From: Holophagaceae bacterium
GTDB taxonomy: Bacteria > Acidobacteriota > Holophagae > Holophagales > Holophagaceae
Length of the DNA stretch: 64,000 nucleotides
Assembly (NCBI GenBank): GCA_025363715.1
Contig: JANYLR010000082.1
Location: 1-64,000 of the forward strand
Reading direction: 5' to 3'
Shown here: piece after piece, positions 62 through 7,750 of the stretch
Layout of the letters: the number at the start of each line of letters is the position of its first letter
Position numbering within the stretch: the first letter of the stretch is position 1
Translations under genes and position numbers: made by a program
The notes under the pieces: model-generated
What the model was told of the DNA's origin: nothing
Database searches by the model: none
What the model saw: only the letters and a program-made list of their open reading frames with translations

Positions 62-160
62 GGAGGGCCGGGCTTGCCACGGCACTCGGGGGAACGACTT
101 AGGGCTGCTTCTTCCGACCTGACCCGGTTCATCGCACCCCGATGCATGGGGCCCGGCTTG
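62..160 (-). ncRNA. ffs: signal recognition particle RNA (4.5S-type SRP RNA)
   Basis: Read on the minus strand, this segment contains the diagnostic SRP RNA core GGTCAGGTCGGAAGAAGCAG (complement of about 105-124), the apical loop and asymmetric loop that bind Ffh. Its ends pair: GCCGGGC (complement of 151-157) with GCCCGGC (complement of 67-73), giving the single long hairpin of small bacterial 4.5S RNA, about 95-100 nt. A short T-stretch follows the 3' arm. The RNA with Ffh and FtsY targets inner-membrane and secreted proteins to the translocon. The core match is strong; the exact ends are estimated from pairing. Confidence 0.88.
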
Positions 161-438
161 CATCCAGCCTAACCGCGATCCCCTTCCCGCCGCGAATTCG
201 GCGTCCGCGCAGGCGGTGTTGGCGCGGGAAACCCCTGATTTTCAAGGTGATTTTAAGCACTGGAAAAATCCGGTAGGCACCCCTTGACACCCCTACATGT
301 TGGGGCCATCCTTTTCTTCCGGCACAACCCATAGAGGTCAGACCACTTGTCCCCACCTCCCGGGGAAAGGTGTGTACACCTCTAGGGAATGCCCTGTCAT
401 CGAACAGCCCTTCCTCCCCCATTGCCCAGGACAGACAC
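161..438. other. intergenic leader between ffs and the ribonucleotide reductase gene
   Basis: This 278-base stretch separates the minus-strand SRP RNA from the plus-strand reductase gene and should hold both promoters. A near-palindrome CCCCTACATGTTGGGG lies at about 287-302, just after a TTGACA hexamer. I see no convincing -10 partner, no NrdR-box pair and no cobalamin-riboswitch core. No gene is supported here. Confidence 0.4.
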
Positions 439-3837
<3,399 letters not shown>

Positions 3838-3843
3838 TTATTT

Positions 3844-3850
3844 GTTAGCC
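3844..3850 (+). other. possible integron core site (GTTAGCC) at the left edge of the cassette-like island
   Basis: The heptamer GTTAGCC stands seven bases after the reductase stop codon and seven bases before the ATG of the Doc/Fic-type gene. Integron cassettes join at GTTRRRY, and cassette ORFs usually start within a few bases of it; this heptamer differs from that consensus at the sixth base. The base composition drops from GC-rich to AT-rich exactly here. By itself a heptamer is weak; it gains weight from the two attC-like elements downstream. Confidence 0.3.
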
Positions 3851-3856
3851 GCCACC

Positions 3857-4744
3857 ATGTTCTTCCTCGATAGCAATGTTCAACAGGAATACGAAAGATG
3901 GGCCGCTCTCATTGGCGAGCACGACCCGTACGCCTCAATTACCTCGCTTGGAATCCATGACGTTCTACGAGCGCACTTTCTAATCATCGATTTCTTCTCG
4001 CATGAAAGAGAAGGAGAAGGTTTTGGTGGAATTGGACCTAAGGATTTAAACCTTTTACATTCTGCAATCTATCGTCAGTTTATTTCTTTTGAGGGAAAAG
4101 ATAGATGGCCAACCTCCTTTGAAAAATGTGCCACGCTCATATTCGGAATTGTGAAAGACCATCCATTTCACGATGCCAACAAGCGGACTGGTTTTTTGGT
4201 CATGCTCTATTTTCTTGAACGCCTAGGCCGAGTCCCAAGAATCAAGCAGAGAGAATTTGAGAATTTTATCGTTGAAGTAGTCGAGAACAAATTAGATCTA
4301 TACCCGAGGTACCGAGAATTAAAGAAAACAGCCCAAGATCCGGAGATTCAATTCATTGCTGATTTCATTAGGAGGGGATCTCGTGAGTTAGATCGCCACA
4401 CCTACACTGTTACTTTTCACGAACTCAACCAAATTATCAAACCACATGGCTTCGAATTATTGAATCCAAAAGGGAACTACATAGATGTGGTGAAGATCGA
4501 ATACCAGCCCAAGTACCTCGGGTTTCTCGGACCTGAAGTGAGGAAAGAAACACGTATGGCGCAAATCGGATTCCCTGGCTGGAAGCGACAGGCAACAAAA
4601 GCCGCCTTGAAAACAGTGCGAGAATCTACAGGGCTCACACCAGAAAAAGGATTCGATTCAAAGGTGTTTTATCAAGGGGCAGACCCACTACACTCGCTCA
4701 TTGACATATATGCAGGCCCCCTCCAGAGGCTTGCTGATCGCTAA
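3857..4744 (+). CDS. Doc/Fic-family protein with HicA-like C-terminal segment
   Basis: A 295-residue protein with the Fic/Doc active-site motif HPFHDANKRTG at residues 102-112. The NKR form is that of Doc (death-on-curing), whose known member phosphorylates EF-Tu, rather than the GNGR form of AMP-transferring Fic enzymes. Doc is only about 126 residues, so there is a long C-terminal extension. Part of it (TFHELNQIIKPHGFELL...) resembles the HicA mRNA-interferase fold, a resemblance by eye only. ATG 3857 is preferred; an in-frame TTG lies at 3842. Codon use is AT-rich, unlike the flanking genes. No partner antitoxin gene is visible beside it. Substrate unknown. Confidence 0.78.
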   Translation: MFFLDSNVQQEYERWAALIGEHDPYASITSLGIHDVLRAHFLIIDFFSHEREGEGFGGIGPKDLNLLHSAIYRQFISFEGKDRWPTSFEKCATLIFGIVKDHPFHDANKRTGFLVMLYFLERLGRVPRIKQREFENFIVEVVENKLDLYPRYRELKKTAQDPEIQFIADFIRRGSRELDRHTYTVTFHELNQIIKPHGFELLNPKGNYIDVVKIEYQPKYLGFLGPEVRKETRMAQIGFPGWKRQATKAALKTVRESTGLTPEKGFDSKVFYQGADPLHSLIDIYAGPLQRLADR

Positions 4745-4747
4745 TCA

Positions 4748-4880
4748 GGCGGCAAACCCTCCGCTTAATTCGGCCCCCGCCGGCATTGTCTTCAGCTTTC
4801 TCTCAACTTCTCGCTTTCTCGGCTTCGCTCACCGCCTCGGTGCAGGCGTGGCCAGTAAGCTTCATTCGATGAGCCACACT
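4748..4880 (+). repeat. attC-like recombination element, copy 1 (degenerate)
   Basis: This segment is an imperfect direct repeat (about 75 % by eye) of 6327-6447; both share GGCATTGTCTTC/TGCATTGTCTTC, CTCTCAACTTC and a GCCTCGG-GCAGGCG block. The outer arms can fold back: the GCTTAATTCGGCC stretch near 4762-4775 pairs with GGCCAGTAAGC near 4859-4869, as in the L boxes of an attC site. The expected outer GTTRRRY box is missing (GATGAGCC is present instead), so this copy may be inactive. It ends about 30 bases before the stop codon of the minus-strand DUF5677-like gene. Confidence 0.5.
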
Positions 4881-4908
4881 AAATCCTCAAATGCCACAAC
4901 CGAAAGAC

Positions 4909-6192
4909 CTAGTTCACATTGTCTGCCCCAGATTTACCCATTTTTGCCAAACGCTTAGCTGCCCCGATGAATTTCAGTTCTACGTCGCGGCTCAACTTTC
5001 TAATTATTTCAACTTCTACCAATTGATCAATTGTTGGTTCCAAACATAGCAAGGCCATTGAAATCATGCAGTATGATCTCGCAGCCAGTACCCCTGGTAT
5101 TTCGAGTCCTACATTGCTTGGCCCAGCTAGTAACGCAGATCCCTGGCTGTGCCTCAACCCAAGCCGAGTTGAATCCCCCATAGGCCCCGCATGAACGTTG
5201 GTACTCGATAGGTGGTAATCCGCACGCAAAGGTTCGTGTTCCATTAACCTTTCCAACTTTTCGAAGGTAATGTGTGGATCAGTGATTTCGCCTGAAGCCC
5301 AGCCGTACCCTTTAGAAAAGGCTTTCCCAAATCGCGACACGACAGTGTCGTACGCCTCAACCAGGGTTTCAAATTCTTGGGCCGTTTCCGCGTCTGTCAG
5401 CATTTCTTTGTTTACTGCGATTTCATGGCGAGCACTCTTCATGTTCTCTACAATTTCGTGCAACAAATAACGCTCCGCCAATTCTTGATTATGTTTCGCT
5501 ATAAAGCCTGACACCACTGACATCTCGTGAAGACACCTCCATCGAGCATAGGCACCATCTGCGTATCCACTCTCAAGCAGAACACGAATTTCCTGAATTA
5601 CCTGGCATGCCCGCGCATGGATTCTTCGCAGAGCTTCCCTTTTGTAGTCTGGATGTTCTGGATCGTTTTTGGGTTCCATCGCATTCCGAGACCCGATTTC
5701 CACTCCAACATAGCCTAATGTTCTAATCGAATAGAATGCACTTCCCCAAACTCTGAACAAATTCTGTGCAAAGGCATCCTCTTCGTCTTGCCTACCTAAC
5801 AGTAATTCATCTGAATCACGTTTTATGAATTCCAATATGGCTTTTACAACACCCGCAATAGAACTCTTAACGGCCCTTGGCACTCGGTTCATTTTTCGAT
5901 TAAGCAGTCTCTCGGCTTCCTGGAATACCCGCCCTAAGGCTCTTTCAACCTTTTTCTTGATTTGAATTTCACTTAACGGCTTGAGCTGGTCGATTTGTTT
6001 GTCACTTATCTCTATATGCAATATTTTTCCCTCTTCACAATTCGCAATATCCTCTTTTAGCTTTTTTCGCTGGGTATTGGTAATCCTAATTCCAACCTTT
6101 CTTAAGCAATTTTCTACAGCCTCTAGTACGAGCACATTTGGCGCGGTCACCTTATGCAGTTCACGATCAAACAATTCCTGCAGGTTCGACAT
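4909..6192 (-). CDS. DUF5677-like protein of unknown function
   Basis: A 427-residue soluble-looking protein. The middle (about residues 175-270), with VLLESGYADGAYARWRCLHE and ...AERYLLHE, resembles the helical DUF5677 family often met in defence and mobile regions; its activity is not known to me. No signal peptide or membrane segment is seen, and the N-terminal 130 residues are charged helices. ATG 6192 is chosen because AGGGG lies five bases upstream; a GTG two codons earlier overlaps that site. It runs opposite to the presumed cassette direction, lies between two attC-like repeats and has AT-rich codon use, which points to transfer. Confidence 0.72.
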   Translation of the reverse strand: MSNLQELFDRELHKVTAPNVLVLEAVENCLRKVGIRITNTQRKKLKEDIANCEEGKILHIEISDKQIDQLKPLSEIQIKKKVERALGRVFQEAERLLNRKMNRVPRAVKSSIAGVVKAILEFIKRDSDELLLGRQDEEDAFAQNLFRVWGSAFYSIRTLGYVGVEIGSRNAMEPKNDPEHPDYKREALRRIHARACQVIQEIRVLLESGYADGAYARWRCLHEMSVVSGFIAKHNQELAERYLLHEIVENMKSARHEIAVNKEMLTDAETAQEFETLVEAYDTVVSRFGKAFSKGYGWASGEITDPHITFEKLERLMEHEPLRADYHLSSTNVHAGPMGDSTRLGLRHSQGSALLAGPSNVGLEIPGVLAARSYCMISMALLCLEPTIDQLVEVEIIRKLSRDVELKFIGAAKRLAKMGKSGADNVN

Positions 6193-6326
6193 CTTCACCC
6201 CTAGGCGCTGTCTCTTGATAACGAACTATTATTCATGTCGGTCGATGATCATAACCTCGAGATGTTTCCGACAGCATGCCTGAAATAGCTTATACCCACG
6301 CAGTTCCCTACCGAACAAAGGTCGGC

Positions 6327-6447
6327 CTAACCTCCCGCTCATTCGGACCCTGCCTGCATTGTCTTCCGCTCTCTCTCAACTTCCTGCTTCCGCAGATTCC
6401 CTCAGCGCCTCGGCGCAGGCGGGCCCCGTTTGCACCCTTCGTTAGGA
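6327..6447 (+). repeat. attC-like recombination element, copy 2
   Basis: This 121-bp element begins with GCCTAAC (6327-6333, fits RYYYAAC) and ends with GTTAGGA (6441-6447, one base off GTTRRRY); the two are complementary over six bases. Inside them, CGGACCCTGCCTGC near 6345-6358 pairs imperfectly with GCGCAGGCGGGCCCCG near 6414-6429, leaving a variable middle. That is the architecture and length of an integron attC (VCR-like) site. An ORF with its own AGGAG starts seven bases after the last box, as in gene cassettes. Integrase recognition cannot be judged from sequence by eye. Confidence 0.58.
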
Positions 6448-6453
6448 GCACCC

Positions 6454-6807
6454 ATGACACCGATGCTATTGGCACTCGCGTTGGGCCTGCTCCCTCCCCA
6501 GGAAACCTCTGATCTGTCGAGCCTGTTCAAGGCGTTCCGCAATTCCTTCGGCGCCTCCGCGTCCTCTCCGGTTCACAGGCCGAAGGAGCCGATCAGGCTC
6601 TACGCCACTGACGATGGTCATACCCAGATCTGCTACATCAACGGCGACAGGATCTTTATCTATGCGAACGGTCAAACGACCAGCCCCTTGTTCGCGAAGA
6701 TGTTCAACATCCAGGCCGTCAATCGCATCACCTATCGCAAAGCGGCTGTGGGCTGGGCTTTCCTCATCTGGATCGACGATGAACTCACCCTTTCGATCGG
6801 CGCCTGA
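6454..6807 (+). CDS. small secreted or hypothetical protein directly after attC-like site
   Basis: A 117-residue protein I do not recognise. It opens with a hydrophobic stretch (MTPMLLALALGLL) that could be a short signal peptide. The rest is mixed and ends with an apparent beta-rich part (YINGDRIFIYANGQ, AFLIWIDDELTLSIGA). ATG 6454 follows GTTAGGAGCACCC, so the ribosome site AGGAG overlaps the last attC box, a layout typical of cassette genes. Base composition is intermediate between the AT-rich island and the host. A long hairpin-forming repeat follows 30 bases after the stop. Confidence 0.5.
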   Translation: MTPMLLALALGLLPPQETSDLSSLFKAFRNSFGASASSPVHRPKEPIRLYATDDGHTQICYINGDRIFIYANGQTTSPLFAKMFNIQAVNRITYRKAAVGWAFLIWIDDELTLSIGA

Positions 6808-6958: not shown

Positions 6959-7699
6959 TCAACCCTGATCCGACTCCGCCAGTGCCGCATCCAGCATCCA
7001 CCGGGCGATGCTGAGGGCGCTGGGCAGCAGGGGCAGGTCGGCCCGGGTGAACCAGCGGGCATCCTCGATCTCGTCGGGATTGGGCTTCAGCTCGCCATCG
7101 AGGTAGTCGGCCGTGAAGCCCACCATGAGGCCGTTGGGGAAGGGCCAGGGCTGGCTGCCGAAGTAGCGCAGGTTCTGGACGCGGAGGCCCAGCTCTTCCG
7201 CCACCTCCCGGTGCACGGCCTGCTCCAGGGATTCCCCGGGCTCCGTGAACCCCGCCACGGCGCTGTAGACGCCAGGCTTGAAGTGGGGTGAGCGGGCCAG
7301 GGCCCAGGCCCGGGCCGATCCCTCGCCCCGCTGGATGAGCACGATGACGGCCGTCGCGTTCGAGGGAAAGACCGTGAGGCCGCAGGCCGGGCACTCGAGG
7401 CTGTGGCCCTCACCGGGCGCCAGCTCCCGGCCGCAGCCGCCACAGAAGCGGTGCCCCGCCTCCCATTCCAGCCACTGATAGGCGCGGCCCGCGCGGGCCC
7501 AGGCTTCCGGATCCAACCGGTCGAAGGCCTCCCGGAGCCCCAGGGCCTCCACGCCCTCGGGCAGAGGATGCTCCTCGGCCACCCGCTCCACCAGGATCCC
7601 CTCGGGCAGGGTCAGGCTGACCTCGGCCTGGACCTCCGGCAGTGGCCCGGCGAAGAGCCAGAGACGGTCTCCCTGGTAGACGATCCGCGCTTCACTCAT
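6959..7699 (-). CDS. nudC: NADH pyrophosphatase / NAD-cap hydrolase NudC-like Nudix protein
   Basis: A 246-residue Nudix hydrolase expected to split NAD(H) into NMN(H) and AMP, and in known NudC to remove NAD caps from RNA. In order: a divergent N-terminal domain, a zinc ribbon (CGGCG...CPACG), then the Nudix box GFTEPGESLEQAVHREVAEELGL. The NudC signature SQPWPFPNG follows 15-20 residues later, and this separates it from other Nudix proteins. ATG 7699 has GGAGGAGG just upstream; an extension of 11 residues is possible but lacks a ribosome site. It lies downstream of the cytochrome gene's stop codon on the same strand. Confidence 0.9.
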   Translation of the reverse strand: MSEARIVYQGDRLWLFAGPLPEVQAEVSLTLPEGILVERVAEEHPLPEGVEALGLREAFDRLDPEAWARAGRAYQWLEWEAGHRFCGGCGRELAPGEGHSLECPACGLTVFPSNATAVIVLIQRGEGSARAWALARSPHFKPGVYSAVAGFTEPGESLEQAVHREVAEELGLRVQNLRYFGSQPWPFPNGLMVGFTADYLDGELKPNPDEIEDARWFTRADLPLLPSALSIARWMLDAALAESDQG

Positions 7700-7750
7700 G
7701 CCTCCTCCGCTGCGGGGCCAACCCGGACCCAAAGGGTTGTGGGGTCCAAG

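Follow-up and report, generated by a model that had tools for sequence, protein, structure and literature searches.

Behind the class II ribonucleotide reductase gene of a draft Geothrix/Holophagaceae genome (3.43 Mb in 121 contigs, 84% complete, 3.45% contamination), the usual next host gene is displaced by a short stretch of foreign-looking DNA. The locus raises the question of whether this island consists of integron cassettes, and if so, by which integrase, and at what kind of target site, they came to be inserted. The window analysed here comprises 64 kb of contig C46 of this genome. An initial annotation, made from the sequence of the window, had read the island as integron-like cassettes behind a ribonucleotide reductase gene, in a cluster of attC sites lacking integron-integrase (CALIN). 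The foreign base composition that it ascribed to the inner genes is borne out by the G+C contents, which are 45% for the fic gene and 45% for the DUF5677 gene versus 68% for nrdJ. The features are collected in Table 1. Pfam confirms the identity of the left-flank gene, whereas the right-flank gene is one that we take to be NUDIX-like from reading the protein by eye, without a family search. An Rfam scan of the window had a small bacterial SRP RNA gene (63-158, minus strand, 64.9 bits) as its sole match, and did not match the attC sites.

Table 1. Coordinates of the island and of its flanking host genes in the window
Feature	Position	Strand	Evidence and remarks
nrdJ-type class II (B12-dependent) ribonucleotide reductase	370..3837	+	Left-flank host gene; Pfam Ribonuc_red_lgC 8.6e-118, Ribonuc_red_2_N 6.8e-35
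Left edge, GTTAGCC core	3844..3850	+	Read directly; 6 bp past nrdJ stop codon; proposed crossover G/TTAGCC
Cassette 1 gene, Fic/Doc-family protein (fic)	3857..4744	+	Motif HPFHDANKRTGF; Pfam Fic 1.6e-12; NCBIfam DOC_P1 2.2e-11, above cut-off
attC1, decayed	4751..4874	+	R'' GGCAAAC, R' GATGAGC; covariance match 105.3 bits, bottom strand, 6e-28
Cassette 2 gene, DUF5677 family, inverted	4909..6198	-	Pfam PF18928 1.1e-23
attC2	6325..6447	+	R'' GCCTAAC, R' GTTAGGA; covariance match 95.4 bits, 4e-25
Small ORF, probable third cassette	6454..6807	+	ATG 6 nt past attC2 core
NUDIX/NudC-like gene (nudC), presumed	6959..7732	-	Right-flank host gene; tblastn synteny

The two repeats that flank the AT-rich DUF5677 gene had been judged about 75% alike by eye, and they are indeed 76% identical over 119 nt in an ungapped alignment (4750-4868 and 6323-6441). 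When aligned with the copies elsewhere in the genome, they extend to the full sites of Table 1 and show the plan of attC sites, with R boxes on the outside, L boxes inside them that have an extra base on one side (GCTCAA versus TTAGC), a long stem, and a middle that varies. The second repeat has the ends that the initial annotation gave it, and conforms to the R''/R' consensus RYYYAAC ... GTTRRRY in all but the last base. In attC1, both R boxes are mutated, so that the site is off consensus on both sides. The annotation had suggested a covariance model as a check. We built one from 12 attC sites on other contigs of the same genome, leaving out the window sites. At E<=10, the model has exactly two matches in the 64 kb window, which are attC1 and attC2. 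Since it was built without the window sites and finds these two alone, the matches are not due to chance. The pairs of the model are kept in 91% of cells, compared to 22-46% in slid controls; there is little covariation, because the sites are too alike.

The two sites differ in their predicted folds. For one array site (L024:1686-1810), the bottom strand folds into a textbook attC hairpin (z -4.24). For the bottom strand of attC2, R''/R' pairing over 6 bp and part of the L pairing are kept (z -0.71), and for attC1 the attC hairpin is not predicted from its sequence. As attC1 lacks both R boxes and does not fold as attC, the island is partly decayed. Judging from its sequence, attC1 is probably inactive and can no longer be recombined, and its decay fits a cassette that is no longer being moved.

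The genes are arranged around these sites as in cassettes. Fic and the small third ORF each begin 6 nt past a 7-nt core. In this respect the annotation, which had all genes start near cores, is right for these two and wrong for the DUF5677 gene, which is inverted, with its stop instead of its start adjoining the core. In the arrays of the complete Geothrix genome G032, an ATG is found within 8 nt of the core in 22 of 52 cases and within 20 nt in 33 of 52 (about 24% are expected for 20 nt). The island spans 3844 to about 6807, and the third ORF at its right edge, which is not followed by an attC site, is probably a cassette whose recognisable attC was lost or never present. Searches of 46 congeneric genomes identified no homologue of fic (E<=1e-10) or of the DUF5677 gene (E<=1e-8), and no homologue of the third ORF was found in 59 relatives searched. 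As the three genes thus have no counterparts in bona fide arrays of congeners, their status as cassettes rests on the sites and not on shared genes. Scans for promoters and terminators returned sites no more numerous than in shuffled sequences.

With two attC sites 1.57 kb apart and no intI nearby, the island is a CALIN. The locus is not a complete integron, in view of the lack of an intI above the TIGR02249 cut-off on C46 and of an attI at the left flank. The absence of an integrase, as claimed by the annotation, is correct for the neighbourhood of the island, but not for the assembly. Contig C44 encodes an integron integrase of 378 residues, which covers all 315 positions of TIGR02249 (454.7 bits, cut-off 265) and is the only match above the cut-off in the genome. 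Its nearest named relatives come from Geothrix and uncultured Holophagaceae. Beside the gene, in the direction of an array, lies CCGTCCAAGTCTA, directly followed by GTTAGGC. A blastn search of the genome with attC2 finds 16 places. The first 4.6 kb of C72 hold a head-to-tail array of eight attC sites (weaker blastn matches included), and others are found on C7, C37, C104, C52 and C16. The mfd gene, as a shared flank that would link C44 and C72 into one array, was not found in the examined sequence beside array A of G032. Since intI is missing locally but full on C44, the genome does bear an integron, and the island is one of its outlying cassette clusters.

The comparison with related genomes, also proposed in advance, shows by tblastn synteny that the island is absent from several congeners, in which nudC directly follows nrdJ. 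In five of them (G007, G026, G006, G015, G008), the two genes are 107-145 bp apart, as opposed to 3.1 kb here. This conservation bears on the possibility that an array contig was misjoined to nrdJ during assembly. The assembly is a fragmented and incomplete draft, and attC repeats are a known difficulty for assemblers (PMC9024848). However, the genes that border the island on both sides are neighbours in the relatives, and fic and the DUF5677 gene occur nowhere else in the genome. We therefore regard an artefact as very improbable.

Other congeners carry different insertions at the same place. G028 has a different single cassette behind the same nrdJ, with a gene of 35% G+C and a clean attC at its end. 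In G034 there is another DUF5677 gene, and in G018 and G025 a DUF3800 gene, all without recognisable attC, and G019 has an insertion with a transposase-like ORF. Across these last four genomes, the DNA downstream of nrdJ contains low-GC genes (DUF5677, DUF3800 and others) and no attC that can be recognised. The variety of inserts indicates that foreign genes have been taken up repeatedly behind nrdJ, at least twice with attC, and the nrdJ 3' region looks like a general insertion hotspot. The attC-less low-GC inserts of G034, G018 and G025 suggest that the locus may also draw insertions by other routes. The hotspot lends some weight to the idea that the cassettes were already part of a segment acquired from a different strain, through homologous recombination or on some other mobile element, and that no integrase acted at this locus. 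However, the left edge of the island is an integrase core, the gene spacing is that of cassettes, and none of the island ORFs was seen to encode another recombinase. An acquisition of this kind thus appears quite unlikely. The exact pre-insertion sequence was found in no genome (the closest nrdJ genes are 90% identical, each with a downstream sequence of its own), and the crossover base is therefore inferred.

It is instructive to view the island against the layout of integrons in the genus. At the thresholds used, attC matches are present in 46 of 47 Geothrix genomes, and an integrase match in 32 of the 47. G032, a single contig with one intI, has 35 attC sites beside intI (556-581 kb), 36 at 1528-1547 kb, and 11 elsewhere. 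The intI-linked array and the array about 0.95 Mb away have two cassettes in common, at 100% identity, which suggests that IntI may act on distant places in Geothrix chromosomes. The distant array (G032:C1:1526000-1553000) has an attI-like head. In G063, likewise one contig with a single intI, large arrays occupy 702-714, 1970-1982 and 2165-2182 kb, and there are smaller ones as well; the arrays of G002 are located at C2:621-638, C1:846-861 and C1:1576-1596 kb. These three genomes, which are complete or nearly so, thus each have a single intI and between two and four arrays, with about 20-36 attC sites per array. A single intI with several separate large arrays is an unexpected layout for complete Geothrix genomes.

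Among the secondary arrays whose heads were read, attI-like heads are found in array B of G032, arrays 2-4 of G063 and arrays 3-4 of G002, and a partial match lies near array 2 of G002. An example of such a head is aataggcgaactcaccccctccccagccagttcgtctaattacta, directly followed by GTTAGGC. An upstream box similar to TAGGCGAAC is present in most of the secondary-array heads of G063 and G002, and the heads of arrays 3 and 4 of G063 are nearly identical. Near intI, within the intI-linked array, at least five genomes carry a cassette-like segment of 215 bp that begins with GTTAGGCCGCCCAACCAGCG and has a second attI at its far end, in place of an attC. The attI half of this segment is also matched at the heads of two distant arrays, array B in G032 and array 3 in G002. 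We infer that such attI-ended cassettes seed new platforms. It is tentatively proposed, at somewhat less than even odds, that the Geothrix integron is polycentric, with one integrase, several attI-headed platforms dispersed along the chromosome and seeded by the mobile cassette of about 215 bp, and many small outposts of which the window island would be one.

Small clusters away from intI can be conserved in position. On C7 of the present genome and in G067 (G067:C1:907000-914500), attC clusters lie behind the same gene, presumably for an aldo/keto reductase, and share a cassette gene that we assume to be VOC-like; both names were read off the proteins by eye. This is a conserved outlying cluster across two distant species. 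The integrase of G067 (G067:C1:772500-781000) matches in two pieces, and is thus probably broken by a frameshift; 14 attC sites remain in this genome, scattered over about seven loci.

The left edge of the island is informative about the type of target. The GTTAGCC core that the annotation had placed there is present just past the nrdJ stop codon, and is one base off GTTRRRY. The 12 nt upstream are weakly attI-like, ranking in the top 1.5% of GTT sites in the window and in the top 9% of the AT-rich ones. An attI head for the island was considered and rejected, as the TAGGCGAAC box found upstream in Geothrix attI sites is absent and the PWM score is weak. As the left flank is only weakly attI-like and lacks this box, the target would count as attG-like. 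In favour of an attG-type insertion are the core at 3844 and the empty sites of the relatives, the latter known by synteny and not to the exact base.

The island could also be what is left of the end of an old, once larger array at this locus, which had its own attI, and perhaps intI, in front of it; this array would later have disappeared from the relatives and decayed in the present genome. The decay of attC1, the conserved CALIN position at the aldo/keto reductase locus in the genus, and the attI-like heads on several secondary arrays are all compatible with such a history. In contrast, the left flank has a weak score and lacks the attI upstream box, and nrdJ and nudC are tightly spaced, without relics, in relatives at several distances, which makes a former array unlikely.

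We consider it probable, at roughly two chances in three, that the island is a small dispersed CALIN of a Geothrix chromosomal integron, with cassettes placed by a trans-acting integrase at an attG-like site behind nrdJ. In such an insertion, the integrase encoded on the other contig would recognise a free circular cassette by its attC, through the folded bottom strand of the site. The cassette attC would then be recombined with a short double-stranded G/TT target behind the nrdJ stop codon, which would serve as an attG-like secondary site. Successive insertions, or a single circle with multiple cassettes, could have produced the order fic-attC1, inverted DUF5677-attC2, third ORF. The expected pre-insertion allele would read TGATTATTTG directly joined to TTAGGA, with the island absent. 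As the cassettes lie directly behind nrdJ, at the position of a terminator-like hairpin in the relatives, transcription of nrdJ could extend into fic.

CALINs, dispersed CALINs and insertion at attG are already known, and the island is therefore of a known type. IntegronFinder 2.0 reports CALINs from two attC sites upward without a nearby integrase (PMC9024848). The window island resembles these in having two attC sites, no nearby integrase and cassette-like genes, but differs in that an intact intI is present elsewhere in the genome and one site is decayed. In Xanthomonas, CALINs are found away from the intI locus in about half of the genomes (PMC12444791). As in Geothrix, the genus has an ancestral integron, the clusters are separate from the intI locus, and some positions are conserved. 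However, Geothrix adds large secondary arrays (about 20-36 attC sites) and attI-like heads, which we did not find described for Xanthomonas. Insertion of cassettes at attG is known from experiments (Loot et al. 2024 Nat Microbiol, as cited in PMC12444791 and PMC11023631), and off-target GTT sites have been reported (PMC10127599). The window island is similar in that cassettes are joined to chromosomal DNA at a G/TT core outside attI, but it would be a natural, partly decayed instance. Cassettes that end in a full or partial attI are known from clinical integrons (PMC12901181). Models of attC exist for several taxa, Acidobacteria included (PMC8352920). Our literature search found no paper on Geothrix integrons, which is weak evidence of novelty.

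In Acidobacteriota, integrons have been recorded but little described, and the island provides a natural, synteny-supported case of cassettes outside the integron in this phylum. With complete genomes that combine one intI with several arrays, Geothrix is a natural system for the reach of integrases in trans and for the mobility of attI.
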